DNA of 64,000 nucleotides, taken from the NCBI GenBank assembly GCA_001508155.1, contig LGFI01000002.1, positions 1-64,000 on the forward strand. Reading direction: 5' to 3'. Numbering within the stretch: position 1 is the stretch's first letter; every line of letters starts with the position of its first letter. Origin of the DNA: Acetothermia bacterium 64_32 (GTDB taxonomy: Bacteria; Bipolaricaulota; Bipolaricaulia; Bipolaricaulales; Bipolaricaulaceae). The notes under the pieces are model-generated. The model worked only from the letters and a program-made list of their open reading frames with translations. It ran no database searches and had not been told where the DNA came from. Shown here piece by piece: positions 10,658 through 26,464 of the stretch. The position numbers and the translations under genes are program-made.

Positions 10658-10664
10658 GGCCCCA

Positions 10665-11522
10665 TCATAACCCGGTCGCCCGCAGGACACGAACGATCCC
10701 AGCCAAGACAAGGAGCATCCCCACCCCTTGCACCGGCCCGATCCCCTCGCCGAACAACAGGTACGCCCACAGGGTCGCCCCCACCGGCTCCCCCAAAACG
10801 GCCACTGCCACCGCCGAGGCGGGAAGGGACCTGAGGGCGCGGTTCACGCTGGTGTGTCCTAGGAGCTGGGGGCCCAGCGCCAAAAGGCCGATCCAAAGCC
10901 AATCCTCCCTCATGGGCAAAGCGCCATCGGCAAGGAGGAAGGTACCCCCAACGAGGAGCAACGCAGCGGTGGAGTAGGCGATCCCCACGTAGGGGAAAAG
11001 CGGCCCGTGATGCCGCATCCTGCGCCCGATCATAAGGTATCCCGAGGCCATGATCGCCCCCACCAGGGCCAAGAGGTCCCCCCACAGGGCACTACCCCCC
11101 AACGAGAAGTCCCCCCAGCCGATCAACACGCCCCCTAGGGTGGCAAGCCCGATCCCCTGCCACAGGGCCCGAGAGGGGGGTTCCCCCAAGAAAAGAGAGA
11201 AAAGCCCTACAAACAAGGGGTTCGTGTTCACAAGCACCACCGAGCTTGCCACCGTGGTATGACGCAGGGACTCGATCCAGGTAGCGAAGTGAAGCGCCAA
11301 AAAAGCCCCGGAGAGGAGGGAAAGCACAAGGCCCCGGCCCGAAAGCCTCCCCCGAGCCAACCCCCAGGGGAGGAGCACAACCGAAGCCAAAACGAGCCGC
11401 CAGGCGGCTATTACAATAGATGGCGAGTGAGTTACTCTAATTATAATAGAGCCGAAGGAGAGGGCTATAACTCCGAGGGCAAGTATCAAGCCGGACTTGC
11501 CTTTCAAGTTCTTATGCTTCAA
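10665..11522 (-). CDS. EamA/DMT-family transporter
   Basis: 285 residues with about ten hydrophobic helices in two EamA repeats, for example LALGVIALSFGSIIIRVTH at the N-terminus and a second repeat near residue 140. Members export amino acids or other metabolites. The substrate is unknown. The TTG start at 11522 has AAGGA five bases upstream and overlaps the patatin stop by 11 bp, pointing to translational coupling. An alternative TTG lies at 11507. Confidence 0.85.
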   Translation of the reverse strand: MKHKNLKGKSGLILALGVIALSFGSIIIRVTHSPSIVIAAWRLVLASVVLLPWGLARGRLSGRGLVLSLLSGAFLALHFATWIESLRHTTVASSVVLVNTNPLFVGLFSLFLGEPPSRALWQGIGLATLGGVLIGWGDFSLGGSALWGDLLALVGAIMASGYLMIGRRMRHHGPLFPYVGIAYSTAALLLVGGTFLLADGALPMREDWLWIGLLALGPQLLGHTSVNRALRSLPASAVAVAVLGEPVGATLWAYLLFGEGIGPVQGVGMLLVLAGIVRVLRATGL

Positions 11523-12294
11523 GCAGTTCCTTCAGGTGTGGCAGGGCGGCCTGCATGGCCCGATAGCCGGCCTCCACCCCCTGACCCACGTCGGAGTAGG
11601 TAGGGGGGTGGTTGCCGAAGTCAGGGGAGATGAGGACCTCCGGTGAGTGGACCTGGGCCTCAAGCTGGGACAGACGTTTCTGGAAGATGGTGGCCATCTG
11701 GAAGAGCACGGAGAACACGTTGGGGCGCACAGGGGGCCTTTCGCTGGGGGGGACCAAGACGTCCACCGCCACCACCACCTCCGCCCCCAGGGCGCGGGCC
11801 ACGTCCACGGGCAGGGGGTTTGTCACCCCGCCGTCCAAGAGGAGCCTGTCCCCCAGCTGGGCGGGGACGAACAGCCCCGGCACGGACACCGAGGCCCGGA
11901 TGGCGTCCACCAAGGGCCCGTGGGTGATGGCCACCGACTCCCCGGTTCTAAGGTCCGTGGCCACGGCGGCGTAGCGGACCGGGAGCTGTTCGATGGTCAC
12001 GTCCCCCACCAGGGGGTAGAGGGTCCGCCGCACCTCCTCCCCCGAGGACCAACCCCGCCAGGGGAAGGTGGGGAGGAGCCCCCTGGCCAGCCGGGTGAAC
12101 CCCATCTCCCCCCACAGGCGGGCGATGTCGGAAAGCGACACCCCGGCGGCGTAAAGCCCCCCCACCTGGGCCCCCACACTCGCCCCGGCAATAGCGTAAA
12201 CCGGGATCCCGGCTTCGGAAAGGGCCTGAAGCACCCCTACATGCGCCACCCCCCGCGGCCCCCCCGAGCTGAGCGCCACCCCCAGCCGCCTCAT
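11512..12294 (-). CDS. Patatin-like phospholipase (RssA/NTE type)
   Basis: 260 residues. The nucleophile elbow GASVG places Ser39, and the partner Asp lies in LLDGGVTNPLPVDVA near residue 155, forming the patatin Ser-Asp dyad. The oxyanion loop reads SSGGPRGVAHVG rather than GGGxKG. Such proteins hydrolyse acyl esters of membrane lipids in the cytoplasm. The C-terminus has a predicted helical stretch (FQMATIFQKRLSQLEAQV). It is the first gene of the patatin-DMT-ahcY set. Confidence 0.88.
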   Translation of the reverse strand: MRRLGVALSSGGPRGVAHVGVLQALSEAGIPVYAIAGASVGAQVGGLYAAGVSLSDIARLWGEMGFTRLARGLLPTFPWRGWSSGEEVRRTLYPLVGDVTIEQLPVRYAAVATDLRTGESVAITHGPLVDAIRASVSVPGLFVPAQLGDRLLLDGGVTNPLPVDVARALGAEVVVAVDVLVPPSERPPVRPNVFSVLFQMATIFQKRLSQLEAQVHSPEVLISPDFGNHPPTYSDVGQGVEAGYRAMQAALPHLKELLEA

Positions 12295-12300
12295 AACAGG

Positions 12301-12334
12301 AAAACGGGGCAGGCACCCGGGCCCGCCCCGTTTT
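12301..12334. terminator. Bidirectional hairpin terminator
   Basis: Ten-base inverted repeat AAAACGGGGC (12301-12310) and GCCCCGTTTT (12325-12334) with a 14-base loop. It is T-rich on leaving in both directions. On the minus strand it ends the ferredoxin transcript just before the patatin gene. Confidence 0.75.
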
Positions 12335-12337
12335 TCC

Positions 12338-12520
12338 TCACTCCTTGCTGATCGCCCCCACCGGGCACTGGTCGACGGCCTCCTCTACACAGGGGAGCGA
12401 TTCGTCCGCACCCGACTTCACATGCGAGTAGCCGTCGTCCCCCATCTCAAAGACCTCAGGACACACCTGCGCGCAAAGACCGCACCCGGTGCACAGATCC
12501 AAATCCACCTTGATCGCCAT
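12338..12520 (-). CDS. Single [4Fe-4S] ferredoxin
   Basis: 60 residues. Cluster ligands are Cys10, Cys13, Cys16 and Cys52 (CTGCGLC and QCP). Cys20 and Cys44 are additionally present in the places that form a disulfide in the 60-residue Thermotoga maritima ferredoxin, and the whole layout matches that protein. It is a low-potential cytoplasmic electron carrier and a plausible partner of the hydrogenase encoded downstream of it. It has its own promoter (12550-12579) and terminator, so it is a single-gene unit. Confidence 0.93.
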   Translation of the reverse strand: MAIKVDLDLCTGCGLCAQVCPEVFEMGDDGYSHVKSGADESLPCVEEAVDQCPVGAISKE

Positions 12521-12549
12521 GATCCCTCCTTTGAATCTGGATTGGACGA

Positions 12550-12579
12550 ACTATAGCATGTCCAGGCGGCTTCTGGCAA
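12550..12579 (-). promoter_or_regulatory. Ferredoxin gene promoter
   Basis: Minus strand: -35 TTGCCA (12574-12579), 18-bp spacer, -10 TATAGT (12550-12555), about 30 bp before the ATG. An AAAGGAGG ribosome site follows. Confidence 0.6.
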
Positions 12580-12581
12580 CC

Positions 12582-12610
12582 TTGCCCGCCCTGTACCCCC
12601 CGCATATAGT
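12582..12610 (+). promoter_or_regulatory. TatT-like gene promoter
   Basis: -35 TTGCCC (12582-12587), 17-bp spacer, -10 TATAGT (12605-12610). It is back to back with the ferredoxin promoter, 3 bp apart. The start point would be near 12617 and the ATG is at 12638. Confidence 0.6.
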
Positions 12611-12637
12611 GAGAAAAAGCCTCATGGGGGTGGTAGC

Positions 12638-13471
12638 ATGAAAAGCCTTCTTAGCGTGGTCGCGGTGGGGCTTTTGGGCCTCAGTTCACTTCCCCAATCC
12701 GTGGAGGACCTACTGGGATCGGCGGACGGGATGTTCCAGGAGGTGTGGGCCAGCGAGTACACCCAGGAGAAGCATCTCGTCCTGGAGTCAAGGCTCCGGG
12801 AGGCCATCGCCCTCTATGAGGAAGCCATCTCCCAAGAGGAGACCAACGTCCACGCCCTCACCATGCTCGCCCGCTGTTATTACACCCTGGCCGACGTCTT
12901 CCTCCTTGAGGACGAGGAGAAGAAGGCCGCTTATGTGGCCGGGCAGGGCTATGGGGAACGAGCCCTGCGCGCCACCCCTGGGTTTGTGGAGCGGGAAGAA
13001 GAAGACGGCTTTGTGGCCGCCGTGAGGGCTTGCCAGGAGGTGGGGGCCCTTTATTGGACCTATGCCAACTGGGCGAGGAAGGACGAATACGACAAGCTTG
13101 GGGCCATCTTCCGGGGGGACGCCCCCAAGCTGGAGGCCCTCATCCTGCGCTGTGCCGAACTCGACCGGGGGTACATGTGTGCCGGGCCTTTGCGGGCCCT
13201 GGGGGCCTTCTGGGGCGGGCTCCCCCGCTTGCCCTTTGGAACCTACAGGCAGAACCTGGACCGCGCCCATCAGTACCTGTCACAGGCGGTGGAGCTGTGC
13301 CCCGAATACCTGGAGAACCTGCGGTTCATGGTGGAGTTCTACCTGGAGCCCAAAGGGGAGGAGGAAGAGGCCCAAGCCCTGCTTGAGCGGATCGTGAAGG
13401 CCCCGCTTGGGGATTATCCGCTTTACAACTCCCTCACCAAGCTTTGGGCCTGGCAAAGGCTTTCGGGCTAG
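12638..13471 (+). CDS. TatT-like TPR lipoprotein/periplasmic protein
   Basis: 277 residues: a signal-peptide-like N-terminus (KSLLSVVAVGLLGLSSLP) and then helical repeats resembling TPRs (EAIALYEEAIS, AHQYLSQAVELCP). The segment RALGAFWGGLP followed by a repeat ending CPEYLENLRFMVEFYL resembles the TatT (TRAP transporter T-component) family. No TRAP transporter genes lie nearby, so the partner is unknown. It stands alone on the plus strand and converges on the ribokinase gene, 2 bp away. Confidence 0.6.
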   Translation: MKSLLSVVAVGLLGLSSLPQSVEDLLGSADGMFQEVWASEYTQEKHLVLESRLREAIALYEEAISQEETNVHALTMLARCYYTLADVFLLEDEEKKAAYVAGQGYGERALRATPGFVEREEEDGFVAAVRACQEVGALYWTYANWARKDEYDKLGAIFRGDAPKLEALILRCAELDRGYMCAGPLRALGAFWGGLPRLPFGTYRQNLDRAHQYLSQAVELCPEYLENLRFMVEFYLEPKGEEEEAQALLERIVKAPLGDYPLYNSLTKLWAWQRLSG

Positions 13472-13473
13472 GG

Positions 13474-14406
13474 TCAACCGACCGGGTGGCGGTAGGGGTG
13501 GCGGAGGAAGTCCTGTACCTCGGCCCGGGTGGGGAGGGAGGAGGCGGCGCCCTTGCGGGTGACGGTGATGGCTGCGGCAGCGTTGGCGTAGCCGATGGCC
13601 TCGTAGGTCCCCTTCCCCTCGGCGAGCGACACCGCCAGGGCAGCATTGAAGGCGTCCCCGGCGGCTGTGGTATCCACCGCCTTCACCTTGTAGGCGGGGA
13701 AGTGGGTCACCCCACCGGGCTCGGCCAGGTACGCCCCATCCTGGTCCGCCTTCACCACCAGGTGCTTGGCCCCGGTGCCGAGGAGGAGCTGAGAAAAGCG
13801 CATAAGATCATCTTTTTTCTTAACCGGGGCCCTGCAAAGGGCGCCCAGTTCCTCCCGGTTTGGGGTTAGGTAGTCCACCCGGTGGAGGGGAAGGGGGGTC
13901 AGGTCCTGCACCGGGGCCGGGTCCAGGACCACCAGGGGGTGATCCTCTGGGAGCCGGCGGAGCAGGAAGGCGAGGGGGGAGATGGGGATCTCCAGCTGTA
14001 GGAGGAGCACATCGGCGCTCCGGACCCGGGGGAGGATCGCCTTCACAAAAGCCTCGTCGATCCGGCCGTTGGCCCCGGGGGCATAGGCGATCTGATTCTG
14101 CCCGTCCCGCCCCACCAGGATCAGGGCCACCCCGGTGATCTCCCCCGGGAGCGCCTCCACCCCGGAGGTGTCCACTCCGGCCGCCCGGGCCACGGAGAGC
14201 AGCTCCTCCCCGTAACGATCCTGCCCGACCCGGCCGAACAGGGCCACCTCGGCCCCCAGGCGGGCGGCTGCGATGGCCTGGTTGTTCCCTTTGCCCCCGG
14301 GGTAGCGGGAAAAGGAGGTGCCGGCGACCGTCTCCCCGGGCCGGGGAAGGCGCTCCACCTCCATCACCAGGTCCATGTTCAGGCTGCCCAACACCGCGAT
14401 CCTCAT
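13474..14406 (-). CDS. rbsK: Ribokinase (PfkB family)
   Basis: 310 residues. The N-terminal GSLNMDLVMEVERLPRPGET and substrate loop YPGGKGNNQAIAAARLG match ribokinase. The C-terminal PfkB signature DTTAAGDAFNAAL contains the catalytic Asp. It phosphorylates ribose at O5; related sugar kinases cannot be excluded from sequence alone. It is the last gene of the long minus-strand run; its ATG overlaps the stop of the beta-CASP gene by 4 bp. No ribose transporter is adjacent. Confidence 0.85.
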   Translation of the reverse strand: MRIAVLGSLNMDLVMEVERLPRPGETVAGTSFSRYPGGKGNNQAIAAARLGAEVALFGRVGQDRYGEELLSVARAAGVDTSGVEALPGEITGVALILVGRDGQNQIAYAPGANGRIDEAFVKAILPRVRSADVLLLQLEIPISPLAFLLRRLPEDHPLVVLDPAPVQDLTPLPLHRVDYLTPNREELGALCRAPVKKKDDLMRFSQLLLGTGAKHLVVKADQDGAYLAEPGGVTHFPAYKVKAVDTTAAGDAFNAALAVSLAEGKGTYEAIGYANAAAAITVTRKGAASSLPTRAEVQDFLRHPYRHPVG

Positions 14407-15734
14407 AGATCTACCGTCTCACGCCAGCCCGGCACGTATACGGAGAGGCCATGTCCGGAGAGCCTTTCCGACAGGGCCTGAAGGGCGGGTTCCTCCCCGT
14501 GCACCAGGAACACCTGTCCCGGGTCGGCGTGTAGGGCCCAGTCCACCAGGATGGGCTGGTCGGCATGGGCCGAGAGCCCGTCTATACGCCAGATGCGGGC
14601 CCGTACCGGCACGATGGAGCCCAGGATCTCGACCCGGGGGGCGCCGTCCAGGATCTGGCGGCCCAGGGTCCCCACCGCCTGGAAGCCCACGAACACCACG
14701 GAGGACTCCGGTCGGGGCAGGTTCTTGCGCAGGTGATGAAGCACCCTCCCCCCGGTACACATGCCGCTCCCGGCGATGACGATGGCCCCCCCCTCGTCCG
14801 AGGGGATGCGCTTGGAGGCCCTTTTGGTGAGGGTGTACTCGAGGAGCTCAAAGTCGAACGGGTCCTTTTTCTTGCGGAAAGTCCTTCGGGCCGGCTCCGG
14901 AAACCGGTCCGTGTAGCGCTCGAATATCCTGGTGGCATGGGTGGCCAGGGGGGAATCCAGGTAGATGCGGCACTTGGGGATCCTCCGCTCCCGCCACAGC
15001 CTGAACAGGATGTACAGCACCTCCTGGGTCCTCTCCAGGGCGAAGGAGGGGATGATCACGTTCCCCCCCGCGGAAAAGGTTTCCACTATGGCCTGGCGCA
15101 AAAGCTCTATCGACTCCTCTATCGGCCGGTGCACCCGGTCCCCATAGGTGGACTCCAAGACCAGCACGTCGGCCTTAGGGGGGTAGGTGGGGTCCTCCAC
15201 CAGGGGCTTCCCCCGGTTCCCAAGGTCGCCGGAGAACACTATGGTCTTCCCCTCTACCTGAAGCTCCACGAAGGCGGCCCCCAGGATATGGCCCGCGTCC
15301 TTGAACTTGGCCTGGATCCCCCCAGGGAGGGGGAGGGGCTCCTCGTATTCCAGGTGGACCTGGAATCGGTCCAGGGCAGCTAGGGCGTCCTCCCCGGTGT
15401 AAAGGGCCGCCTCCCCCTCCTCCTCCTGGATCCGGGCGGCGTCCATGAGCATGATGTGGGCGATGTCCCGGGTGGGAACGGTGGAAGCGACCCTACCCCG
15501 GAAGCCCTCCCGCACCAGCCTGGGGATGAGCCCCAGGTGGTCCAGGTGCCCGTGGGTGAGGAGGAGCCAGTCGACCTCCTTCGGATCAAAAGGGAAGGGC
15601 TCGTAGTTCCTCTCCTCCAGGTCCGGCGGGCCCTGGAACATGCCGCAGTCCACCAGGATCTGGCTTCCCCCAGCCTCCAGGTGGAAGCAGGAACCGGTGA
15701 CGGTGCCGGCGGCCCCGGCGAAGGTGAGCCTCAC
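14403..15734 (-). CDS. Beta-CASP metallo-beta-lactamase-fold ribonuclease
   Basis: 443 residues. The MBL core shows LTHGHLDHLGL (HxHxDH zinc motif), and the CASP region begins around VLVLESTYGDRVHR. The C-terminal FLVHGEEPALQAL carries a conserved His. It resembles the YSH1/CPSF-type RNA exonucleases (COG1236) rather than RNase J. The GTG start at 15734 has AGGAGGT five bases upstream and a 4-bp GTGA overlap with the NuoF stop; the open frame further upstream lies inside the NuoF gene in another frame. An RNA nuclease at the end of a hydrogenase run is unusual. Confidence 0.88.
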   Translation of the reverse strand: MRLTFAGAAGTVTGSCFHLEAGGSQILVDCGMFQGPPDLEERNYEPFPFDPKEVDWLLLTHGHLDHLGLIPRLVREGFRGRVASTVPTRDIAHIMLMDAARIQEEEGEAALYTGEDALAALDRFQVHLEYEEPLPLPGGIQAKFKDAGHILGAAFVELQVEGKTIVFSGDLGNRGKPLVEDPTYPPKADVLVLESTYGDRVHRPIEESIELLRQAIVETFSAGGNVIIPSFALERTQEVLYILFRLWRERRIPKCRIYLDSPLATHATRIFERYTDRFPEPARRTFRKKKDPFDFELLEYTLTKRASKRIPSDEGGAIVIAGSGMCTGGRVLHHLRKNLPRPESSVVFVGFQAVGTLGRQILDGAPRVEILGSIVPVRARIWRIDGLSAHADQPILVDWALHADPGQVFLVHGEEPALQALSERLSGHGLSVYVPGWRETVDL

Positions 15735-17344
15735 CGGTACACCTCCTGGGGTTCCCGACAGTGGGGACAGGGCCCCCCGAAAAGGTGACCTTCGAACTCC
15801 CCCCGGAACCGACTCAGGCAGGTCTTCACCGGCAGGGCCACCGACTGGCCAAGCGGGCACAGGGAGGCCAGGCTCATGGCATCCACCGTCTCCAGCATGA
15901 GCTCAAGTGTACGCCTGTCCCCCTCCCCCCGGCGAATCGCCTCCACCAGGCGCACCAGGGCATCGGTCCCGGCCCGGCAGGGGGTGCACTGGCCGCACGA
16001 CTCATGCCGGAAGAAGCGCAGCACCGAGGCCAACATGTCCACCATGCAGGTCGATTCGTCCATGACCAACACCGCCCCCGAGCCCAGGGCGGCGGCCAGC
16101 TCCCTGAGGGAGTCGAAGTCCATCCGGACGTCCAGGTCCTGGGGGGAGAGGAAGGCCCCTGCTGCCCCCCCGACCAGCACCCCTTTGAGCCTGCGCCCCT
16201 CCGGGAGCCCACCCCCGAGCTCGTAGACCAGTGTCCGCAAGGGGGTGCCCATCTCCACCTCCACCAGGCCCGGGAACCGCACATGCCCCAGGATGGTGTA
16301 CACCTTGGTGCCCGGACAGGTGGGGGTGCCCAAGGTGCGGTACCAATCGGCCCCCTGCCGGAGGATCTCCGGGACGCTGGCCAGGGTCTCCACGTTGTTC
16401 ACCACCGTGGGCCGGCCCCATAGGCCGCAGGTGACGGGGTAAGGGGGTCTGATCCTGGGCCAGCCGCGCTTGCCCTCCAGGGATTCGATGAGGGAGGTCT
16501 CCTCCCCGCACACGTAGGCCCCGGCCCCGGGCCGCACCTCAAGGTCGAAGGAGAAGTCCGTGCCCAGGATGTGCTCGCCCAGAAGGCCGCACTCCCTGGC
16601 CTGGGAGATGGCCCGCTCCATCCGGGCTATCGAAAGGCCGTACTCCCCCCGGATGTAGATGAAGCCCTTCTTCGCCCCCACGGCGTAGCCACAAAGCAGC
16701 ATCCCCTCGATGAGCTTTTGGGGGTCCCCCTCCAGGATGAGCCGGTCCTTGAAGGTACCGGGCTCCCCCTCGTCGGCGTTGCAGATCACGTATTTCTCCT
16801 GCCCGGGGGCGCGGCGCACCGCCTCCCATTTTATCCCGGTGGGAAAACCCGCCCCGCCCCGGCCCCGGAGCCCGGACCGCTTTATCTCCCCGAGCACCTC
16901 CTCCGGGGTCATTTCCCTGAGGGCCCGCTCCAGGCCGGCATAGCCCCCGGCGGCGATGTACTCCTCGATCTCCTCGGGGTCTATCACCCCGCAGTTCCTC
17001 AGGACCACCCGCACCTGCCGGCCCAGGACCTGGCGGGGCTCGGTCTGGGGCACCGCAGCGGGAAGCCTGAGCCTCTCCACCGGCCGCCCCTTCAGGAGGT
17101 GCTCCTCCACTATCTGGGGGACGTCCTCCGGGGTCACCCCGGCGTAGTACACCCCCTCCGGGTAGACCACGAGCACCACCCCCCGGCCGGAGATCCCCAG
17201 GGTGCCCGTCTCCACCACCTGGACCTCTTCCTCCAGCCCCACCCGGGAGAGCCCCTCCCGCAGGGCGGAGATCACCTGGTCCACCCCGGCCAGGCGGGCC
17301 TCCTCGTCCACCCCCACCAGCACATGTGCCCGCGCGATCCTCAT
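15731..17344 (-). CDS. Second NuoF-like NADH/FMN subunit (Cys-poor N-terminal domain)
   Basis: 537 residues. Residues 1-100 look like a thioredoxin-fold domain but lack the four Fe-S cysteines (VGVDEEARLAG and ETGTLGISGRG where paralogs have Cys). Then comes an intact NuoF core: FMN loop [14 protein letters not shown] loop CNADEGEPGTFKDR, and [4Fe-4S] ligands in ESCGQCTPC plus SLCPLGQS. The C-terminus ends in a short CPHC tail instead of the two ferredoxin clusters found in the neighbouring NuoF. It is a flavin subunit, probably of a second diaphorase module. The ATG overlaps the NuoE stop by 4 bp; upstream open frame is rejected. Confidence 0.85.
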   Translation of the reverse strand: MRIARAHVLVGVDEEARLAGVDQVISALREGLSRVGLEEEVQVVETGTLGISGRGVVLVVYPEGVYYAGVTPEDVPQIVEEHLLKGRPVERLRLPAAVPQTEPRQVLGRQVRVVLRNCGVIDPEEIEEYIAAGGYAGLERALREMTPEEVLGEIKRSGLRGRGGAGFPTGIKWEAVRRAPGQEKYVICNADEGEPGTFKDRLILEGDPQKLIEGMLLCGYAVGAKKGFIYIRGEYGLSIARMERAISQARECGLLGEHILGTDFSFDLEVRPGAGAYVCGEETSLIESLEGKRGWPRIRPPYPVTCGLWGRPTVVNNVETLASVPEILRQGADWYRTLGTPTCPGTKVYTILGHVRFPGLVEVEMGTPLRTLVYELGGGLPEGRRLKGVLVGGAAGAFLSPQDLDVRMDFDSLRELAAALGSGAVLVMDESTCMVDMLASVLRFFRHESCGQCTPCRAGTDALVRLVEAIRRGEGDRRTLELMLETVDAMSLASLCPLGQSVALPVKTCLSRFRGEFEGHLFGGPCPHCREPQEVYR

Positions 17345-17805
17345 CTTTCCTCCCGATAGCGCGTCAGGATCCCCTTGAGCCTCTCCGGGGTAAGGTTGCC
17401 ATAGACCTCGTCGTCGATCATCATCGCCGGCGCCACCCCACACACCCCAAGGCAGCTGGTGAGCTCCAGGGTGAACAGGCCGTCCTTTGTGGTCTCGCCC
17501 ACGTCAATCCCCAGCTCCTCCCGCAGGGCGGCCAAAACCGACCAGGCCCCGGCCAGATGACAAGGGGGGGAATCACAAAGCCTGATGATATGCCTTCCCC
17601 GGGGCACAAGCGAGAACATTGAATAGAAGGTGACCGCGTCGTGCACCGCAGAGAGCGGAAGCGAAAGGTATTCGGCCACCAAGCGCAGGTCCTCCCCGGT
17701 CAGATAATTACGCGGGTTTGCTCGCTGAAGCTCATGTAGGATCGCAAGAAGCTGGTCCCGTTCCTTCGGGAAGCGATGGATGATCTCAAGCTTTTCCACG
17801 GTCAC
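17341..17805 (-). CDS. NuoE-like [2Fe-2S] subunit (HydC/HoxE type), second copy
   Basis: 154 residues. A helical N-terminus is followed by the thioredoxin-like [2Fe-2S] domain with ligands in CDSPPC (C-x4-C) and SCLGVCG (C-x3-C). In HydC/HoxE proteins this cluster takes part in electron flow at the NAD(H) end of the complex. The GTG start at 17805 forms a GTGA overlap with the HydB-like gene. It lies between two NuoF genes, so it could serve either. Confidence 0.88.
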
Positions 17806-19592
17806 CCCTTTCTCCCAGGAAGCCTCTCTATGGCCCCAAACGGGCAGGCGGCCTGGCAGGCCCCACACCGGATGCACAGGGACTGGTCGATTCGGTAGGG
17901 GGGGCTGCCCGGGGTGCCGCTGATGGCCCCGGTGGGACAGGCCCGCCGGCAGGCATCGCAGCCCCGACACAGCTCGGGGTCGATCCGGTAGTGGATCAGG
18001 GCCGGGCACACCCCGGCCGGACACGCCCCCTCCCGGATGTGGGCCAGGTACTCGTCCCGGAAGTAGCGCAGGGTGGAAAGGACGGGGTTCGGCGCCGTCT
18101 GCCCCAGCCCACACAGGGAAGCGCTTTTCACAAGCTGCGCCAGCTCCTCAAGGCGCTGCAGGTCCTCCTCGGTGCCCTCGCCGCTTGTTATCCGATTCAA
18201 TATCGAAAGCATCGTCTGGGTGCCCACCCGGCAGGGGGTGCATTTGCCGCACGATTCCTCGGCGGTGAACTCCAGGAAGAACTTGGCCACGTTCACCATG
18301 CAGGCCGAGTCATCGAGCACGATCACCCCCCCGGAGCCCATGATCGCCCCGTGCCCGCGGAGGGACTCGTAATCCACGGGGACATCGAGGAGCCCCTCCG
18401 GAAGACACCCCCCCGATGGCCCTCCGATCTGAACCGCCTTGAACTTCCGGCCCTCTGGGACCCCGCCGCCCACGTCGAAGATCAGCTCCCTGAGCGTGAT
18501 CCCCATGGGAACCTCCACGAGCCCCGTGTTTCGGACCTGCCCGGCCAGGGCGAACACCTTGGTGCCCTTGCTGGTTTCAGTGCCGATGGCGGAAAACCAG
18601 TCGGCGCCGTTTTGGATGATGTGCCGGACGTTGGCGAAGGTCTCCACGTTGTTTATCAGGGTTGGCTTTCCCCACAGGCCGGACTGGGCTGGGTAGGGAG
18701 GCCTGGGGCGGGGCTCCCCCCGGCGGCCCTCGATAGAGGCGATGAGGGCGGTCTCCTCCCCGCACACGAAAGCCCCGGCCCCCATGCGGAGCTCCACGTT
18801 GAAGGAGAAGCCCGTCTCCAGGATGTCCTCCCCCAAAAGCCCCAGCTTTCGAGCCTGGGAGATGGCCTCCTCCAGGCGTCGGATGGCCAGGGGGTACTCG
18901 GCCCGCACGTAGATGTAGCCTGATTTGGCGCCCACGGCGTAGGCGGCGATGGCCATCCCCTCCAGCACCGCGTGGGGATCCCCCTCCAGGATGGCCCGGT
19001 CCATGAACGCCCCGGGGTCCCCCTCGTCCGCGTTGCAGATCACGTACTTCTCGCCCCCAGGGGCCTTCCGCACGAGCTCCCACTTCGTCCCGGTGGGGAA
19101 GCCCGCGCCGCCCCGGCCCCGGAGCCCGGACCGCTTTATCTCCTCGATCACCTCCTCTGGGGACATCTCGGTGAGGGCCCGCCCCAGGGCCTCATAGCCC
19201 CCGGCGGCGATGTACTCCTCGATCCGCTCGGGGTCGATCACGCCGCAGTTTGACAGGACCACCTTCCTTTGGCGGGAGAAGAAGGGAAGCTCTTGGGGGC
19301 TTGGGGCCCCTTCCCTCCACAGGAGCCGGGCCACGGGCCTGCCTTTGAGGAAGTGCTCCACTACGATCTCCTCGGCGTCCTGGGGCCGGACCTTGATGTA
19401 GAAGGTGCCCTCCGGGTAGATCAGCATCACCGGGCCTAGCTCGCAGGGCCCCATGCAGCCCGTCTCCACGATCCTCACCTCTTCCGCGAGGCCGTGGGCG
19501 GCCAGGGAGGAAAGCAGGGCCTTTTTCACCTCCTGGGCCCCGGAGGACAGGCAGGCGGTGCCGGAGCAGAGGAGCACCTCGAGCCGTCTCAT
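17802..19592 (-). CDS. HydB-like NuoF subunit with extra Fe-S domains (bifurcating type)
   Basis: 596 residues in three parts. The N-terminal thioredoxin-like [2Fe-2S] domain has all four Cys (LLCSGTAC and ETGCMGPC). The NuoF core has [24 protein letters not shown] and a [4Fe-4S] set ESCGKCTPC plus SLCGLGQT. The C-terminus has two [4Fe-4S] ferredoxin motifs ([12 protein letters not shown] and [12 protein letters not shown]). This layout is that of HydB/HndC of electron-bifurcating hydrogenases, not of plain HoxF. It should bind FMN and oxidise or reduce NAD(P)H. The ATG overlaps the maturation protease stop by 4 bp. Confidence 0.92.
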
Positions 19593-20017
19593 GTCCTCCC
19601 CCCTCCCAGGTAGGCCATGAGCCTCCCCACCAGCCCCTGGGCGGCCCGCAGGGTGGGGCGGGAGAACCCCTCCCCGAAGGAGAGGTCCCGCGCCGGCACC
19701 GTGACCAGCCATGCCTCCGGGACCCTTCCGAACAGCCTCTGGGCCCAGGAGAGGAGGCCCTTTGGGGAGAAGGAGTGGAGCAAGGAGGGCTCCGGGCCGG
19801 GCCGGAGCCGCTCCCAGCGCACCGGGCCCGCCCCCACCCGCGCGTCCACGAAGATGGCAAGGTCGGAGGTGGCGATCTTGGGGATGAGCTCGGGGACCAG
19901 GGCCTGGGCGGTCACCACCTCCACCCCGGGCAGGCCCTCCAGCCTCCGGGCCACCCACAGGCCCACGCCGTCGTCCCGCCGCAGGGGGTGGCCAAACCCC
20001 ACCACCAGGGTCTTCAT
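19589..20017 (-). CDS. Hydrogenase maturation protease
   Basis: 142 residues of the HyaD/HycI family. The N-terminal [13 protein letters not shown] corresponds to the Ni-binding GxGNxLxxDDGxG; Asn is replaced by His here. A second acidic ligand lies in IFVDAR, and a downstream SFSPKGL segment matches the usual HxLSP region loosely. It should remove the C-terminal peptide of the large subunit after Ni insertion. It sits directly behind the large subunit gene with ATGA overlaps on both sides. hypA-F genes are not in the window. Confidence 0.9.
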
Positions 20018-21435
20018 CTCTCCCTCCAGGAGATCAGTTCCCCCCGGGGGCCGTAGAGCTCCACCCGCAGGGGGAGCCTGCCCACCGCGTGCACCGAGCA
20101 GGAAAGGCACGGATCGTAGGCCCGGATCCCCCCCTCCAGGCGGTTGAGGAGCCCTTCCGTGATCTCGCGCCCGGTGAGGAAGTGCTGGGCGATCTGGGCT
20201 ACAGTGCGGTTCATGGCCAGGTTGTTGTGCCCGGTGGAGACGATCAGGTTTGCCCACCGGATGACCCCGTCCTCGTCCACCCGGTAGTGGTGCAGCAGGG
20301 TCCCCCGGGGGGCCTCGTGGGCCCCCACCCCCTCGAGCTCGTTGATCCCCGCCTCGGCCCTCACCCTGGGGGAAAAGAGGTCCGGATCATCCAGATGCCT
20401 TTCGATCCTTTCCAGGGCGGCCAGGATCTCGATGAGGCGGGCGTAGTGGTAGTGGAAGGAGGAGGTGACGGCCTTGCCCTCAGCCAGGGCCCGGAAGCGG
20501 GCCAGGGCCTCGTCCGCCAAGGGGGTCCCCATCCGGTCACAGCAGTTGAGGCGCGCCAGGGGCCCCACCCGGTATAGGCCCTCTGGGTAGCCTGCCTCCT
20601 TGTAGTAAGGGAACTTTAGGTAACTCCAGCCCTCGGTCTTTTCGGCGATGTACTCCCCGTAGCGGGCTGGGTCCAGCCCGTCGGCCACCACGTTGCGCTC
20701 TGCGTCCACAAACCTGATCCGCCCGGAGTAGTGCTCCCAGGTGCCGTCCGGGGCCACCAGGGCCATGAACAGGCTGGGGAAGTCCCCGAAGGTGGCGATC
20801 TCCTCTTGCCAGGCATCTAGGTGTGACTCGTAAAGGGAGATGGCGTCCTGGGCGATGCGCAGGGCCTCGGGGAGGCCGGCGGCCAGGGCGTCCCTGGCCT
20901 CCTCGGAAAGCGGGGCCCTCACCCCCCCGGGCACGGCCCAGGCAGGATGGATCCTCCTGCCCCCCAGGGCCTCGATGACCCTTTGGCCGTAGGCCCGAAG
21001 CCGGATCCCGTCCAGAGCCAGCTCCGGCTTCTCCTCCGCAAGGCCAAGCACGTTCCGGCGGGCGGGGTCGTAGTCCCAGCCCAAAAGGAGGTCGGGGCTG
21101 GAGAGGTGGAAGAAGGAAAGGGCGTGGGACTGGACGAACTGGCCCAGGTTCATGAGCCGGCGGAGCTTGTCCGCCGCCCGGGGGACCCTGACCGCCAGGA
21201 TCGCATCCCCGGCCTTGGCCGAGCACAGGAGGTGGGAGACCGGGCAGATGCCGCAGATGCGGGCGGTGAGGGCGGGCATCTCCCACAGGGTGCGGCCCCG
21301 GCAGAACCGCTCGAACCCACGGGCCTCGGTCACGTGGAACTTGGCCTCCTTTACCCTTCCGTCCTCCCCCAGCCGCAGGGTGATAAGCCCGTGCCCCTCA
21401 ATGCGCGTAACCGGGATCTTTATCCTCTTCATCAT
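20014..21435 (-). CDS. hoxH: [NiFe]-hydrogenase large subunit (group 3d/HydL-like)
   Basis: 473 residues. The proximal nickel motif is [10 protein letters not shown] near residue 60 and the distal motif [10 protein letters not shown] lies about 30 residues from the end. Protease cleavage after that His would remove a tail of roughly 25 residues. These motifs match soluble bidirectional (HoxH-type) enzymes and the large subunit of bifurcating HydABCSL. Two consecutive ATGs occur (21435, 21432) after GAGGGGG. It follows the small subunit gene by 6 bp. Confidence 0.95.
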
Positions 21436-21441
21436 TCCCCC

Positions 21442-21981
21442 TCAGCCAAACCTAAGGTCTTCCCCGGACAAGGTGAGGGCCTCCCCGGAAAGGAGCCTCT
21501 GGATGAACCGCCAGATCCGCTCGGCCGGGGGGGGACAGCCGTGGAGGAAGCCATCCACCGGCACCACCATGGAAAGCGGCAGGGCCCGGGGGAGGAGCTT
21601 GGGAACCTCCCCCTCTTCCAGCCCCGGTACCTCCCCCTCCCCGTAGACCTCGTGGAGGACCTCCTCCCTGGGGATCGGGTTGCGCATGGAGGGCACGTTG
21701 CCGGTCACAGCACAGTCCCCCAGGGCCACCACCAGCCTGCTCTTCTTCCGGATCTCCTGGATCAGGTGTAGGTGCTCGGCGTTCCCCACCGCCCCCTCTA
21801 CAAAGGTGACGTCCACCCCGTCCGGGAACCCCTTTATGTCCACCACCGGGGAGTAGACGAGCTCTACCTTCCTTGCCAGCTCCAACAGGCGTTCATCCAG
21901 GTCCAAGAGCGACATATGGCAGCCAGAGCAGCCGGAGAGCCACACGGTGGCCACGCGCACCTTGCCCTTCGCCTCAGACAC
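21442..21981 (-). CDS. hoxY: [NiFe]-hydrogenase small subunit (HoxY/HydS-like)
   Basis: 179 residues, the short soluble form without a Tat signal. Proximal [4Fe-4S] ligands appear in [29 protein letters not shown] and FLHGCPPP. It transfers electrons between the Ni-Fe site and the HoxU-like subunit. It overlaps the preceding HoxU gene by 8 bp. Confidence 0.95.
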
Positions 21982-22675
21982 GGGGCCTCCTTTCCGTCAC
22001 CTCGGCCAGGACCTGGGGGCGTTTTTCCTGCTCGGCCGTGGCCACCCCCCGCTCGGCCAGGGCGCCCACCGGGCAGGCCTGTACGCACTTCCCACATCCC
22101 GTACAGGTCTCGGACTCCCCCCAGGGCCCTCCCAGGTCGGGCTCCACCAGGGTATTCACCCCCCGGCCGGCAAAGCCCCAGGTCATCGCCCCCTCCACCT
22201 CGGAGCAAGCCCGCACACACCGCCCACAGAGCACACACCTGTTCGGGTCGTACACGAACTTCTCATGGCTGGCGTCCAGGGAGAGCCCCGGGAAGCGGTA
22301 GGGGAAACGCACCGCGTCCATCCCCAGCTCGCAGGCCAGGTCCTGGAGCTCACAGTGGCCGTTTGAGACGCAGATGGAGCAGATGTGGTTCCGCTCGGCG
22401 AACAGCAGCTCCAGGACCATCCTCCGCAGCTCTTTTAGGCGCTGGGAGCCCGTCACCACCCGCATCCCCTCCTCTGCCGGGGTGGCGCAGGCCGGGACCA
22501 GCTTTCCGTTCCAGTTTGCCACCTCCACCAGGCACAGGCGGCAGGAGCCGCGTGGGGAGAGCCCCTCCAGGTAGCACAGGGTGGGGATGCGGATCCCGGC
22601 GGCCCGGGCCGCCTCCAGGATGGTCTGGCCCGGACGGGCCTGCACAGTCCTGCCATCTATCTCCAAGGTGATCAT
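21974..22675 (-). CDS. hoxU: HoxU-like Fe-S subunit of the hydrogenase
   Basis: 233 residues. An N-terminal [2Fe-2S] ferredoxin domain ([15 protein letters not shown] with Cys later in PACATP) is followed by a NuoG-type His/Cys [4Fe-4S] segment ([12 protein letters not shown]). Two [4Fe-4S] ferredoxin motifs follow ([11 protein letters not shown] and [12 protein letters not shown]). It links the small subunit to the flavin subunit and corresponds to HydA of HydABCSL. The ATG overlaps the preceding gene stop by 4 bp. Confidence 0.93.
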
Positions 22676-23040
22676 CCCTCCACCTTTCGCACCTCGATCA
22701 CGTGGTCTTGGATGGGCCGACCGTTCACCACGTGCTCGGCCACCAGGCGGCGGGCCAGGGCCTCGTCCACTTCCCCGTACACGGTGATGCGGCCCTCCTC
22801 GTGTATCTCCACCACCGGTTCCTTGGCTGCCAGGCCCCGCTCCCCGGTCTGGGTGACGATCACGTCCCCCAGGCCCCGGCGGGCCAGCTCGTCCATGATC
22901 GCCCGCAGGGTCTGGCGGGCCCCGGCGGCCAGGCCGGACGTCCCCATGCCAACCACGATCTTCACCCGGGCGGTCCCGCCCCGCAGCCGCAGCCTCTCCT
23001 TGGCCCGCTCCCGGATCCGGCGCAACTCCTCAAGGTTCAT
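22672..23040 (-). CDS. HndB-like thioredoxin-fold protein without cysteines
   Basis: 122 residues. It matches the stand-alone (2Fe-2S) thioredoxin-like proteins next to hydrogenases (KIVVGMGTSGLAAGARQTL, EHVVNGRPIQDHVI). However, the residues that are Cys in iron-binding members are Ser, Glu and Ala (MGTSGLAAG, QTGERGLAAKEP), and there is no Cys at all. It therefore should not bind an Fe-S cluster and may be structural. ATGA overlaps on both sides lock it into the hydrogenase operon. Confidence 0.75.
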   Translation of the reverse strand: MNLEELRRIRERAKERLRLRGGTARVKIVVGMGTSGLAAGARQTLRAIMDELARRGLGDVIVTQTGERGLAAKEPVVEIHEEGRITVYGEVDEALARRLVAEHVVNGRPIQDHVIEVRKVEG

Positions 23041-23558
23041 TCCTCCTCCTTTAACCCCACCTGGCCCAGGCCCCGGCGCAGCCTCCCCTCAAGCTCCCTC
23101 AACCCCCCCACCCTGTCCCCTGAGGTGAGGGTCCAGGTACGCCCCTCCCCCGCGAACCTGAGGGTGAACTCCACCTGGGGGTTGGAGAGGACAAGCGGCG
23201 CCACGGTGCCGGCCAGGTCCCCCAAGGGGGGGCGATCTGGGTGCCCGTAGGGGACGACGAGCCTTACCTTGGTCCCCCGGCCCGGGGCCGAGTCCACATC
23301 CAGCCGGCCCCCCAGCTCCTCTGCGGTCTGCCGCACCAAGGCCAGGCCCAGACCGATCCCATGGGGGGCGTCCTTGGTGGTGAAAAACGGGTCCAGGGCA
23401 CGGGAGACCTCCCCTTCGGACATCCCCCGGCCGTCATCCTCCACCTCCAGCACAAGAAACCCCCCACTCCTTTCCAAAGAAATCTTGATCCTCCTCGCCC
23501 CGGCACGCAACGCGTTCAATATGAGGTCCGCCACGTGCAGGGATAGGTCCTCGATCAT
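23037..23558 (-). CDS. HATPase (histidine-kinase-like) protein in hydrogenase operon
   Basis: 173 residues. The N-terminal 100 residues are a GHKL ATPase: N-box HVADLILNALRAGA, G1 VEDDGRGM, G2 GIGLGLALVRQTAEELGG, and GRGT near the end. There is no phospho-acceptor His domain and no sensor. The last 70 residues are a variable beta-rich segment of unknown role. Similar proteins occur beside [FeFe]-hydrogenase genes in Thermotogae and Firmicutes. ATGA overlaps join it to NuoE and to the HndB-like gene. Confidence 0.8.
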   Translation of the reverse strand: MIEDLSLHVADLILNALRAGARRIKISLERSGGFLVLEVEDDGRGMSEGEVSRALDPFFTTKDAPHGIGLGLALVRQTAEELGGRLDVDSAPGRGTKVRLVVPYGHPDRPPLGDLAGTVAPLVLSNPQVEFTLRFAGEGRTWTLTSGDRVGGLRELEGRLRRGLGQVGLKEEE

Positions 23559-24025
23559 CCCCGGCGGAGCCCCCGCAGGATGTCCCGGGCCCGCCCTGGA
23601 GTCAGGCGCCCGTAGACCTCCTCGTCCACCATCATCACCGGCGCAAGGCCGCAAGCCCCAAGGCACCTCACCCCTTCCAGGGTGAACAGGCCATCGGCGG
23701 AGGTCCCCCCCAGGTCCACCCCCAGCTCCTCCCGCAGCGCGTCCAGCACCCGCCCGGCGCCCCGCACATAGCAGGCAGTGCCCAAACACAGCCTGATCAC
23801 GTGCTTCCCCACCGGCTGGGTGCGGAAGAAGTGGTAGAAGGTGACCACCTCGTGCACCTGGGAGGGGGGGACGCCCAGGACGCGGGCCACCGCCTTCTGG
23901 ACCTCCAGGGGCAGGTGGCCCAAAACCCCCTGCACGCGGTGCAGCGCTTGGATCAGCTCCGAAGGCCTGCCGGCATAGGGCTGCAGGAGTTCAGCCACCC
24001 TGGCTTCGATCCCCGCTGGCATCAT
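23555..24025 (-). CDS. NuoE-like [2Fe-2S] subunit (HydC type), first copy
   Basis: 156 residues, complete NuoE layout: helical N-terminus (LIQALHRVQGVLGHLP) and thioredoxin-like domain with CLGTAC (C-x4-C) and RCLGACG (C-x3-C). It is the likely HydC partner of the bifurcating hydrogenase. A start at the second ATG (24022) is equally possible. The gap of 51 bp upstream contains a small hairpin (24046-24060), the largest break inside this part of the operon. Confidence 0.88.
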   Translation of the reverse strand: MMPAGIEARVAELLQPYAGRPSELIQALHRVQGVLGHLPLEVQKAVARVLGVPPSQVHEVVTFYHFFRTQPVGKHVIRLCLGTACYVRGAGRVLDALREELGVDLGGTSADGLFTLEGVRCLGACGLAPVMMVDEEVYGRLTPGRARDILRGLRRG

Positions 24026-24045
24026 CCCTCCCCGAAACTATCTTG

Positions 24046-24060
24046 GGGCAGATTCTGCCC
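24046..24060 (-). other. Short inter-gene hairpin in hydrogenase operon
   Basis: GGGCAG / CTGCCC inverted repeat with a 3-base loop between the second DRTGG gene and NuoE. There is no T-run after it, so a terminator is unlikely; RNA processing or stability is possible. Confidence 0.35.
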
Positions 24061-24076
24061 GAATAGTCCCTTCGGA

Positions 24077-24415
24077 TCAAGCTTCTCCTTGCAGGAGCCG
24101 AAACAGCCTTCCGGCGAGCTCGAAGGTATCCTGGCGGGAGAGGAGGAAGGCCACCCCCTCGGCCCTGGCCCGGGAGAGGACCTCCGGGCTTGGGGCAAGC
24201 CCCCGCACGCACACCACCCCTGCCACCCCGGTGAGCTTGGCCACAGCCACCACGTTCAGGTGCCGCTGGTGGGTGAGCCAAAGGTCCCCTTCCCCGGCGT
24301 GGGCCAGGGCATCCGAAAGGAGGTCGGAGCAGAAGCCCCAGCGCACCTGGCGGCCAGGGTCGGGGAGTACCAGCCCCTTAAGCTCAAGCCTCTTTGCCAC
24401 TTCTCCCAAGGTCAT
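24077..24415 (-). CDS. DRTGG-domain protein (second copy)
   Basis: 112 residues consisting of one DRTGG-type domain (GFCSDLLSDALAHAGEGDLWLTHQRHLNVVAVA...GVVCVRGL). ATG at 24415 is chosen because AGGAGG lies four bases upstream; a GTG at 24418 is too close. It overlaps the RsbW-like gene by 32 bp. DRTGG domains are found near phosphotransacetylase, CBS and hydrogenase genes; the ligand is unknown. Probably a regulatory or sensing component. Confidence 0.78.
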   Translation of the reverse strand: MTLGEVAKRLELKGLVLPDPGRQVRWGFCSDLLSDALAHAGEGDLWLTHQRHLNVVAVAKLTGVAGVVCVRGLAPSPEVLSRARAEGVAFLLSRQDTFELAGRLFRLLQGEA

Positions 24416-24854
24416 CACGCCTCCTGTAGATGGTGGCCCGGATCACGGTTCCCTGGCCCACCCGGGAGAAGATGTGGAACTCGTCCGAGTTCTTCTCCAT
24501 GTTGGGGATGCCCATCCCGGCCCCGAACCCCAGCTCCCTGGCCCAGTCCGGGGCGGTGGAGTAACCCGGCTGTTTCACGAGGTCGATATCGGCGATCCCC
24601 GGCCCCCGATCCGAGAAGAGGAGCTCCACCCTGTCTTCCCGCACCACCAGGACGATCCTCCCCCCCTTGGTGTACAGGGCGATGTTCATCTCCCCTTCGA
24701 AGCAGACTATGCCCGCCCGCCGCACCACCTCCGGCTCCGCCCCCATCCCCCGCAGGAGGCGCCGCACCTCGGTGGAGGCCTTCCCCGCCTCCTCGATGGC
24801 GTCCGGGGGCACCGGGAACACCCGGCGCAGGAGGATGGACGGCTCAGCCGGCAT
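24384..24854 (-). CDS. RsbW-like ATP-binding anti-sigma-type protein
   Basis: 156 residues. A GHKL-type fold with a Glu-Asn pair (FEGEMNIALYTKGG), FSDRGPGIADIDL, the conserved LGFGAGMGIPNMEKNSDEF and GQGT. This is the serine-kinase/anti-sigma-like family often encoded with DRTGG proteins and NuoE beside hydrogenases. No cognate anti-anti-sigma or sigma gene is nearby. ATG at 24854 overlaps the upstream DRTGG stop by 11 bp. Confidence 0.8.
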   Translation of the reverse strand: MPAEPSILLRRVFPVPPDAIEEAGKASTEVRRLLRGMGAEPEVVRRAGIVCFEGEMNIALYTKGGRIVLVVREDRVELLFSDRGPGIADIDLVKQPGYSTAPDWARELGFGAGMGIPNMEKNSDEFHIFSRVGQGTVIRATIYRRRDDLGRSGKEA

Positions 24855-25215
24855 AATCCGAAAGATGGCGGAACTCGGTGGGCCGCAGGCCATGCCCGTA
24901 AAGGATCCCGCAGGTCTCAAACATCCCCTTTTCGGTGGCAAGGAGCGGGATGCCGGCCTCCCTAGCGTAGTCCACCACCTTGGGTGGGGGGCGTTTCCCC
25001 CGCACCACGAGCACGGCACAGGCGTTCATCACATCGGCCACCCGCACCGCCTGGGGGGTGACCATCCCGGTGATCAGGAGGAACCCCTCCTCCGTGACCG
25101 ACAGGACGTCGGACAGGAGGTCCGCCCCACAGCCCTTGTCCACCCTTCGGCCCAGGAGCTCCTCCCCGGCCAGCACCTCCGCCCCCACCAGCTCACACAC
25201 CTCGGCCAGGGTCAC
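24844..25215 (-). CDS. DRTGG-domain protein (first copy)
   Basis: 123 residues, one DRTGG domain (GCGADLLSDVLSVTEEGFLLITGMVTPQAVRVADVMNACAVLVVRGK). Its CGADLLSDVL matches CSDLLSDAL of the second copy. The GTG start at 25215 follows a G-rich ribosome site and lies 10 bp after the apgM stop. Paired DRTGG genes around an RsbW-like gene form the regulatory front of the operon. Confidence 0.78.
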   Translation of the reverse strand: MTLAEVCELVGAEVLAGEELLGRRVDKGCGADLLSDVLSVTEEGFLLITGMVTPQAVRVADVMNACAVLVVRGKRPPPKVVDYAREAGIPLLATEKGMFETCGILYGHGLRPTEFRHLSDYAG

Positions 25216-25225
25216 GCCCGCCCCC

Positions 25226-26464
25226 TCAAGCGCCGAACTTGGGGCCGAAGTCGCAGTAGGAGAGGAGCTGGGGGACAAGCCGCCCGGAGAACCTCCCCAG
25301 CCCGCCCTCCCCTGCCGCCCGTTCCGAGAAGCCCGTGGTGCGATCGGGGCGGATGGCCGGGCCGAAGAACAGGGCCGGCACGGGGTCCGCGGTGTGCTCC
25401 CCCACCGCCGGAGGGGTGGTGTGGTCCCCGGAGAAGACCAGATGAAAGCCCCCCGGCTCCAGGCCCTCAAGGAGGGGCCCGAAGAACTCGCGGTCGATGC
25501 GTTCGATGAACCCCAGCTTTGCCTGGGCATCGCCGTCGTGGCCGGCGTTGTCCGTGCCCTTTATGTGGACGAACACAAAGTCATAGCTTTCCAGGGCCTC
25601 GAGGGCCGCCCGAGCTTTGCCAGCCAGGTCCGTCCCAAGGTCGCCGGTGGCACCGGGCACGGGAAGCACCTCTAAGCCCGCCGCCCGGGCCACCCCCTTA
25701 TAAAGCGCCCCCCCGGCGATACAGGCACCCCGGATCCCGTACTTTTCCGTCACCGGCTCGAGGTGCGGCATGACGGCGGCCCCGCGGAGGAGGAGGGCGT
25801 TTCCTGGGGGCTTCCCCTCCTCCCTTCGGCGCCGGTTCACCGGGTGATCCCGCAGGGCCTCGTACGCCCGACGGGAAAACTCGTTCAGGACCTCGGCGGT
25901 ACGACGGGCGGCCTCCGAGTCCTCCAGGGGACGTGCCTCGGCCAGGGGGACCTCGGTCTCATGGGGGTCGGTATCCGAGACCGCAGCGCAAAGCCCCTCC
26001 CCCCGCAGGACCAGGGCTCCCCGGTGCTCGGTGGAGGCCCGAAAGCTGAAACCCACCCCCAGGTCCGAGAGATCCAGCTGGTTTATCGCCCCCTCAAGCT
26101 CCCTTCCCTCGGCCAGCCGACCGGCCCTGCGGTCCACAACGATGAGCCTCCCGTCCCTCTCCTCCACGGTGGCGAAGTTGGCCCGGAAGCACACGTCCCC
26201 GCCCCGCACCTCCATCCCGATCCCCAGGGCCTCAAACGCCCCCCGGCCGGTGTAGACCCGGAGGGGATCGTAGCCGAAGATGGAAAGGTGCGAGGTGTCC
26301 GAGCCCGGCCGCACCCCCGGGGCGATGGGGTCCATGAGCCCCAAAGCCCCCTTCCTCGCCAGCTCGTCCAAATTGGGCGTGCGCGCACGTTCAAGACAAG
26401 TGGCACCCCCCATATCGGTTGGGCGCCCCCCAAGCCCGTCTGCAATGACAAGAATTGCCCTCAT
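25226..26464 (-). CDS. apgM: 2,3-bisphosphoglycerate-independent phosphoglycerate mutase, archaeal type
   Basis: 412 residues, the size of the archaeal-type iPGM (alkaline phosphatase superfamily). Metal-site motifs: IADGLGGRPTD at the N-terminus, TPNLDELA, GSDTSHLSIFGYDP with the phosphorylated Ser region, and FVHIKGTDNAGHDGD plus FSGDHTTP near the C-terminus. It interconverts 3- and 2-phosphoglycerate in the cytoplasm. It is the first gene of the run leading into the hydrogenase genes. Its predicted promoter is face to face with that of asnA. Confidence 0.93.
   Translation of the reverse strand: MRAILVIADGLGGRPTDMGGATCLERARTPNLDELARKGALGLMDPIAPGVRPGSDTSHLSIFGYDPLRVYTGRGAFEALGIGMEVRGGDVCFRANFATVEERDGRLIVVDRRAGRLAEGRELEGAINQLDLSDLGVGFSFRASTEHRGALVLRGEGLCAAVSDTDPHETEVPLAEARPLEDSEAARRTAEVLNEFSRRAYEALRDHPVNRRRREEGKPPGNALLLRGAAVMPHLEPVTEKYGIRGACIAGGALYKGVARAAGLEVLPVPGATGDLGTDLAGKARAALEALESYDFVFVHIKGTDNAGHDGDAQAKLGFIERIDREFFGPLLEGLEPGGFHLVFSGDHTTPPAVGEHTADPVPALFFGPAIRPDRTTGFSERAAGEGGLGRFSGRLVPQLLSYCDFGPKFGA

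Follow-up and report, generated by a model that had tools for sequence, protein, structure and literature searches.

A GHKL-DRTGG gene module that accompanies the NuoE/NuoF-type coupling core across phyla, and its minimal version in Acetothermia bacterium 64_32

Introduction

The electron-bifurcating hydrogenase NiFe-HydABCSL of Acetomicrobium mobile (PMC8880783, PMC9304861) and the [FeFe] HydABC operons, exemplified by Halsa_1862-1871 of Halanaerobium hydrogeniformans (PMC4237134), are the closest described systems to the operon considered here. In this study, we analyzed a 64,000-nt stretch of Acetothermia bacterium 64_32 (contig LGFI01000002.1, positions 1 to 64,000; hereafter the window), in which two genes for stand-alone DRTGG proteins, one for an RsbW/SpoIIAB-like ATPase and one for a lone HATPase (together, the module) lie within the operon of a [NiFe] hydrogenase. 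The A. mobile enzyme has the same core subunits as that of the window, and its accessory proteins HydD, HydP and HisK are alike by description. However, as published, the A. mobile operon has neither the DRTGG/RsbW front genes nor a second NuoE/NuoF, both of which are present in the window.

For the Firmicutes version of the module, a list of its genes has already been published (PMC4237134). The Halanaerobium operon shares with the window an anti-sigma-type kinase, NuoE, a histidine-kinase-like protein, a ferredoxin-like protein and NuoF. By contrast, the window encodes a [NiFe] enzyme and lacks three components of Firmicutes [FeFe] HydABC operons, namely the HydS-like hydrogenase, the PHP gene and the H-cluster HydA. 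A histidine-kinase-like ATPase has been noted beside TamHydS (PMC8163306), and the kinase-like ATPase beside HydS in the TmHydS and TamHydS systems (PMC10055695, PMC8163306) fits the RsbW-like family surveyed here. With this HydS-type [FeFe] module the window has in common two DRTGG proteins, the RsbW-like protein and the HATPase beside NuoE/NuoF, whereas HydS and PHP are absent; a search of the window's genome for PF02906 gave no match, and neither HydS nor any other [FeFe] hydrogenase domain was found in it. In a literature search with subscription papers mostly outside its scope, no description was found of the module with [NiFe], formate dehydrogenase, HdrA or Rnf partners.

Results

The module accompanies the NuoE/NuoF core rather than one catalytic site

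A preliminary description of the window proposed that the module travels with NuoE/NuoF rather than with the catalytic metal site, and named beforehand a neighborhood survey as the means of refuting this. Public genomes were scanned with an RsbW alignment, and no fewer than 567 places were confirmed. The 80 that ranked highest were used, which covered roughly 12 phylum-level groups; because they were ranked by their similarity to a single sequence, per-phylum frequencies in this wide sample are biased. A second sample was less selected: among 200 genomes of the phylum of Moorella (the Firmicutes sample), an RsbW-like gene was found in 73, and 60 neighborhoods were taken. At least 5 kb of sequence was available on both sides at 122 loci (22 from the window's phylum, 48 from the wide scan and 52 from the Firmicutes sample). 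Within 10 kb of the RsbW-like gene, DRTGG, PHP and HATPase genes were found at 119, 113 and 110 of these loci, respectively. NuoF lay within the same distance at 101 loci (83%), and either NuoF or RnfC at 107 (88%). In 29 of the surveyed genomes, PF01512 had 120 matches over about 125 Mb, a density of about one per Mb, from which a chance expectation of about 2% per 20 kb follows for NuoF. Even at a background of 5%, the binomial probability of this linkage was below 1e-100, a figure that treats non-independent loci as independent. Linkage to the core spanned about 12 phyla with shuffled gene orders, and in several phyla the module was embedded in the Bfu operon, with BfuB and BfuA on either side of it.

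Five types of catalytic partner were recognized, with labels that miss genes outside the retrieved flank: [NiFe] hydrogenase (37 of the 122 loci), [FeFe] hydrogenase (36), Rnf (13), formate dehydrogenase (13) and HdrA (11). Pfam and NCBIfam confirmed examples of a formate dehydrogenase-type BfuA (L106), an HdrA-fused BfuA (L117) and RnfC (L154). The survey thus bore out the proposed co-occurrence with NuoF, far beyond chance, and the module tracks the shared NuoE/NuoF ferredoxin-NAD(H) core, not any one hydrogenase or metal site. It is a widespread accessory module of the NuoE/NuoF-type coupling core, found with Bfu enzymes and, in some Firmicutes, with Rnf. In the latter, rnfC adjoins the module in place of a hydrogenase (L146, positions 9596-18671, which has a full rnf cluster; also L148, L154, L209, L227 and L242).

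The preliminary description had also presented the set as a module of the [FeFe] type that is joined to a [NiFe] enzyme. That picture could not be maintained, because [NiFe] was the partner at 37 of the 70 flanked loci outside the Firmicutes sample, and because [FeFe] catalytic domains occurred in 2 of 100 genomes of the window's phylum, compared with 48 of 100 for the RsbW-like protein. The [FeFe] picture was correct for the Firmicutes sample ([FeFe] at 27 of 52 loci, [NiFe] at none). The label "regulatory" is presumptive. Distances on the RsbW tree correlated positively with those for NuoF, NuoE and NiFe, as in any operon; this comparison was non-discriminating and was not used.

Interchangeable sensory inputs

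Most RsbW-like genes were next to, or fused with, one of two candidate sensors. Across 175 loci, the RsbW-like protein began with a fused CBS pair at 69 and a HydS gene followed the RsbW-like gene at 71, while 34 had neither; one further locus, L209 beside Rnf, had both. Strict exclusivity of CBS and HydS was therefore rejected, leaving a strong tendency only. When loci with flanking sequence were compared, HydS loci (n = 61) were paired with [FeFe] (35), Rnf (10), formate dehydrogenase (7) or [NiFe] (0), CBS loci (n = 40) with [NiFe] (19) or HdrA (11), and loci with neither input (n = 21) with [NiFe] (18). On the RsbW tree, from which loci of unknown partner were left out and in which 47 of 112 branches were weakly supported, at least 15 changes of partner and at least 5 of input type were counted. 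A CBS pair, HydS or neither are thus interchangeable inputs to a common module. RsbW-like and HydS pairs were also seen with no DRTGG, PHP or NuoF in the flank (L194, L202 and L225), possibly as a free-standing H2-sensing pair.

Operon of the window

The minus strand from 26464 to 15731 formed one gene run, opened by a phosphoglycerate mutase gene and closed by a second NuoF gene. The features are, in gene order:

25226..26464, minus strand: archaeal-type phosphoglycerate mutase, directly upstream of DRTGG1 (NCBIfam PRK04024, 509 bits)
24844..25215, minus strand: DRTGG1, stand-alone DRTGG-domain protein, 123 aa, GTG start (Pfam DRTGG, E 1.8e-8, above cut-off)
24384..24854, minus strand: RsbW/SpoIIAB-like GHKL ATPase/kinase, 156 aa (NCBIfam spIIAB, E 1e-11)
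24077..24415, minus strand: DRTGG2, second stand-alone DRTGG protein, 112 aa (Pfam DRTGG, E 2.3e-6, above cut-off)
24026..24076, minus strand: 51-nt gap; a PHP-domain gene (about 250 aa) is at the equivalent spot in most relatives
23555..24025, minus strand: NuoE/HydC [2Fe-2S] subunit (Pfam 2Fe-2S_thioredx, E 3e-51)
23037..23558, minus strand: stand-alone GHKL HATPase without DHp, HisK in A. mobile nomenclature (Pfam HATPase_c, E 3.9e-22)
22672..23040, minus strand: HydD-like, cysteine-free paralogue of the HydB thioredoxin-like domain (matches HydB/NfnB N-termini in PDB, best E 3.5e-15)
21974..22675, minus strand: HydA/HoxU Fe-S subunit without H-cluster domain (NCBIfam HoxU, 336.9 bits, cut-off 333)
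21442..21981, minus strand: [NiFe] hydrogenase small subunit (NCBIfam VhuG-like)
20014..21435, minus strand: [NiFe] hydrogenase large subunit (best PDB match 7t2r_D, A. mobile NiFe-HydABCSL, E 1.4e-160)
19589..20017, minus strand: putative hydrogenase maturation protease (HydP), from position and conservation in relatives; function by resemblance
17802..19592, minus strand: HydB/NuoF (BfuB) with thioredoxin-like, FMN and C-terminal 2x[4Fe-4S] domains (best PDB match 7t2r_B, E 1.2e-272)
17341..17799, minus strand: second NuoE (Pfam, E 3.8e-48)
15731..17344, minus strand: second NuoF, without the C-terminal ferredoxin domain (Pfam Complex1_51K, E 9e-51)

All of the module genes named in the preliminary description were found at the operon front. 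Its view that they are joined to the [NiFe] enzyme by overlapping genes was largely upheld, as adjacent genes overlapped by 4-32 nt or were separated by 2-10 nt. Two refinements apply: a 51-nt gap between DRTGG2 and NuoE is the sole exception to this spacing, and NuoE, an enzyme subunit, is placed between DRTGG2 and the HATPase and splits the module genes.

The closest solved relatives of HydB and the large subunit in a PDB search were chains B and D of 7T2R, which is the bifurcating NiFe-HydABCSL of A. mobile (PMC8880783); the window enzyme was therefore assigned to this known type. HydB has the thioredoxin-like, FMN/NADH and C-terminal 2x[4Fe-4S] domains, HydA lacks an H-cluster domain, HydC/NuoE is present, and the [NiFe] small and large subunits are group 3-like. 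Judged by its sequence, the enzyme is a complete electron-bifurcating [NiFe] hydrogenase, with predicted coupling of H2 to NAD and ferredoxin. In the HydD-like counterpart of Moorella (L141), the same stretch reads GMGTCGIAAGA, and loss of cluster ligands in HydD-like proteins may be general.

A stripped-down version in the window's phylum

The whole operon was found with the same gene order in about 20 relatives in the phylum and, given this recurrence, the arrangement is far beyond chance. In most of them a PHP gene lies between DRTGG2 and NuoE. The reported lack of a PHP-domain gene was accurate for the operon, and a genome-wide search likewise found no PHP relative anywhere in the window's genome. 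Four other genomes (G036, G038, G039 and G088) carry the remaining module genes, and no PHP relative was found in them; the placement of PHP-less genomes on the RsbW tree suggests that PHP was lost at least twice. Its absence is a local loss and no general feature of the [NiFe] version. The window lineage, without HydS, CBS or PHP, thus has a minimal version of the module.

The phosphoglycerate mutase gene keeps its position upstream of DRTGG1 in most phylum relatives, and its membership in the module is uncertain. The second NuoE-NuoF pair (15731-17799), located after HydB, is also shared by most relatives in the phylum and by [NiFe] loci of Chloroflexota (e.g., L080, L082, L097, L099 and L112). 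Neither the C-terminal 2x[4Fe-4S] domain nor, apparently, the cluster cysteines of the N-terminal thioredoxin-like domain are present in the window's second NuoF. In G039 (L053, 7543-7915), the RsbW-like, HydB and second NuoE frames look broken, through either sequencing errors or decay.

Folds and conserved residues of the module proteins

The RsbW-like protein scored below the Pfam cut-off (E 3e-5) and far below the equivalog cut-offs of spIIAB (44.9 of 135 bits) and RsbW (12 of 145). Its AlphaFold2 model (pLDDT 90) best matched SpoIIAB structures in the PDB (1til/1l0o, target TM about 0.8), and the window protein has the SpoIIAB-like GHKL fold with the N-box Glu/Asn and the G1 and G2 motifs. 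Across 116 relatives, E-x-x-x-N, DxGPGI and GFGxGxG were conserved at 93-100%. The fold and ATP-site motifs are thus common to SpoIIAB/RsbW anti-sigma kinases; in contrast to those kinases, the window protein has no STAS/SpoIIE partner, a sub-equivalog score and a redox-enzyme gene context. In 95 HATPase relatives, the N box (D-x-x-x-N), DxGxG and a C-terminal HxDxxPxG were conserved at 96-100%. No DHp domain with a phospho-accepting histidine was found in the window HATPase (173 aa), which gave HATPase-type matches only. Residues for ATP and Mg binding were near-invariant in both families, so that ATP binding by the RsbW-like and HATPase proteins is well supported as a prediction, while catalysis is only putative. 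Metal-ligand residues of PHP proteins (n = 97; HxH, DHN, E and DxH) were conserved at 98-100%. PHP and HATPase were fused in one protein at three Planctomycetota-type loci (L122, L138 and L145), which links the two.

A phmmer search of DRTGG1 against PDB sequences gave no match, and its likenesses came from a fold search. The model (pLDDT 95) best matched 2ioj, a stand-alone DRTGG protein, followed by 3l2b/3l31, the CBS-DRTGG region of the C. perfringens pyrophosphatase, and also resembled the HPr kinase N-terminal domain. The DRTGG fold is thus like that of family II pyrophosphatase, and a CBS pair and DRTGG adjoin in most non-Firmicutes wide-scan loci. However, the pyrophosphatase holds CBS and DRTGG in one chain with the enzyme, whereas in relatives of the module CBS is fused to RsbW, and the window has no CBS.

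Discussion

Because the same GHKL/DRTGG set adjoins a NuoE/NuoF or RnfC core irrespective of the type of catalytic site, this core is the likely target of the module. We tentatively favor, at somewhat less than even confidence, an adenylate-responsive post-translational protein switch acting on it. The RsbW-like GHKL protein would bind ATP or ADP, with the DRTGG proteins as its scaffold or target, and would bind or phosphorylate a subunit common to all partners (NuoE, NuoF or the HydD-like protein), such that the core would be switched or throttled with the cellular energy state. HydS would add an H2/redox input and the CBS pair an adenylate input; the PHP protein, where present, would reverse the modification, and the lone HATPase may be a second nucleotide-dependent partner. 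For the window lineage, with HydS, CBS and PHP gone, a reversible nucleotide-gated binding switch would be the simplest remaining mechanism. Besides the linkage and the partner changes, the near-invariant nucleotide sites, the conserved PHP metal ligands, the PHP-HATPase fusions and the likeness of DRTGG1 to the regulatory region of a nucleotide-regulated pyrophosphatase speak for this reading.

Several points weigh against such a switch. A few loci show the module, or RsbW-HydS alone, without a partner in the flank. The binding, kinase and phosphatase activities of all members are only predicted, and operon linkage alone would also fit transcriptional control or assembly. The A. mobile holoenzyme (PMC9304861) implies that any contact with the module must be transient, and the PHP-less version in the window implies that phosphorylation-dephosphorylation cannot be general.

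We consider it unlikely that the module is instead a transcriptional regulator, with the RsbW-like protein serving as anti-sigma factor or partner-switching kinase for the operon and HydS or CBS as sensor. Its SpoIIAB/RsbW fold would suit such a role, but the scores far below the SpoIIAB/RsbW equivalog cut-offs would not, and the region's only promoter-like site lies on the opposite strand. Classical anti-sigma partner switching is unlikely given that STAS and SpoIIE-type proteins had no match in the window's genome, which is about 92% complete, so that their absence is likely but uncertain. Since the module is unaccompanied by genes for STAS, SpoIIE, a sigma factor or a DNA-binding protein, the post-translational switch is preferred over partner switching.

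To the same degree we doubt a role in assembly or maturation, in which GHKL and DRTGG chaperones would insert FMN or Fe-S clusters, or dock NuoE/HydB, across Bfu enzymes. Linkage to the common core rather than the metal site would be expected of such chaperones, the HATPase and HydD genes lie between the NuoE and HydA/HydB genes, and HisK and HydD have been listed under assumed maturation or regulation (PMC8880783). However, an RsbW-like gene is absent from about half of the phylum's genomes that have NuoF, and chaperoning leaves the attached sensor domains (HydS, CBS) unexplained. Moreover, T. maritima HydABC produced recombinantly in E. coli was active after artificial H-cluster maturation (PMC7064455), which makes an essential maturation role unlikely, assuming that the module genes were not co-expressed. 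The constant NuoF/RnfC companion, the attached sensors and the active recombinant HydABC combined favor a post-translational switch over maturation.

That the module is an independent, vertically inherited neighbor with no functional link is highly improbable. Inheritance of gene order within the phylum is in its favor; against it are linkage over about 12 phyla with shuffled orders, at least 15 partner changes and embedding in enzyme operons.

A wider proposal, which we regard as rather doubtful, is that the module is an unrecognized cross-phylum switch for ferredoxin-NAD(H) enzymes as a class (NiFe, FeFe, Fdh, HdrA and Rnf). Its GHKL-DRTGG core would be constant, sensors would plug into this core (HydS sensing H2, CBS sensing adenylates), and the switch would gate bifurcation post-translationally.

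The module bears on two questions, namely the control of bifurcating hydrogenases and of Rnf, and the relay of the HydS signal. It leads to the prediction, testable in culturable Firmicutes, that a single RsbW-like protein takes either HydS or CBS domains as its input, and the minimal version in the window would be useful for locating the essential contacts. The module may be a general control switch for ferredoxin/NADH-coupled energy metabolism.

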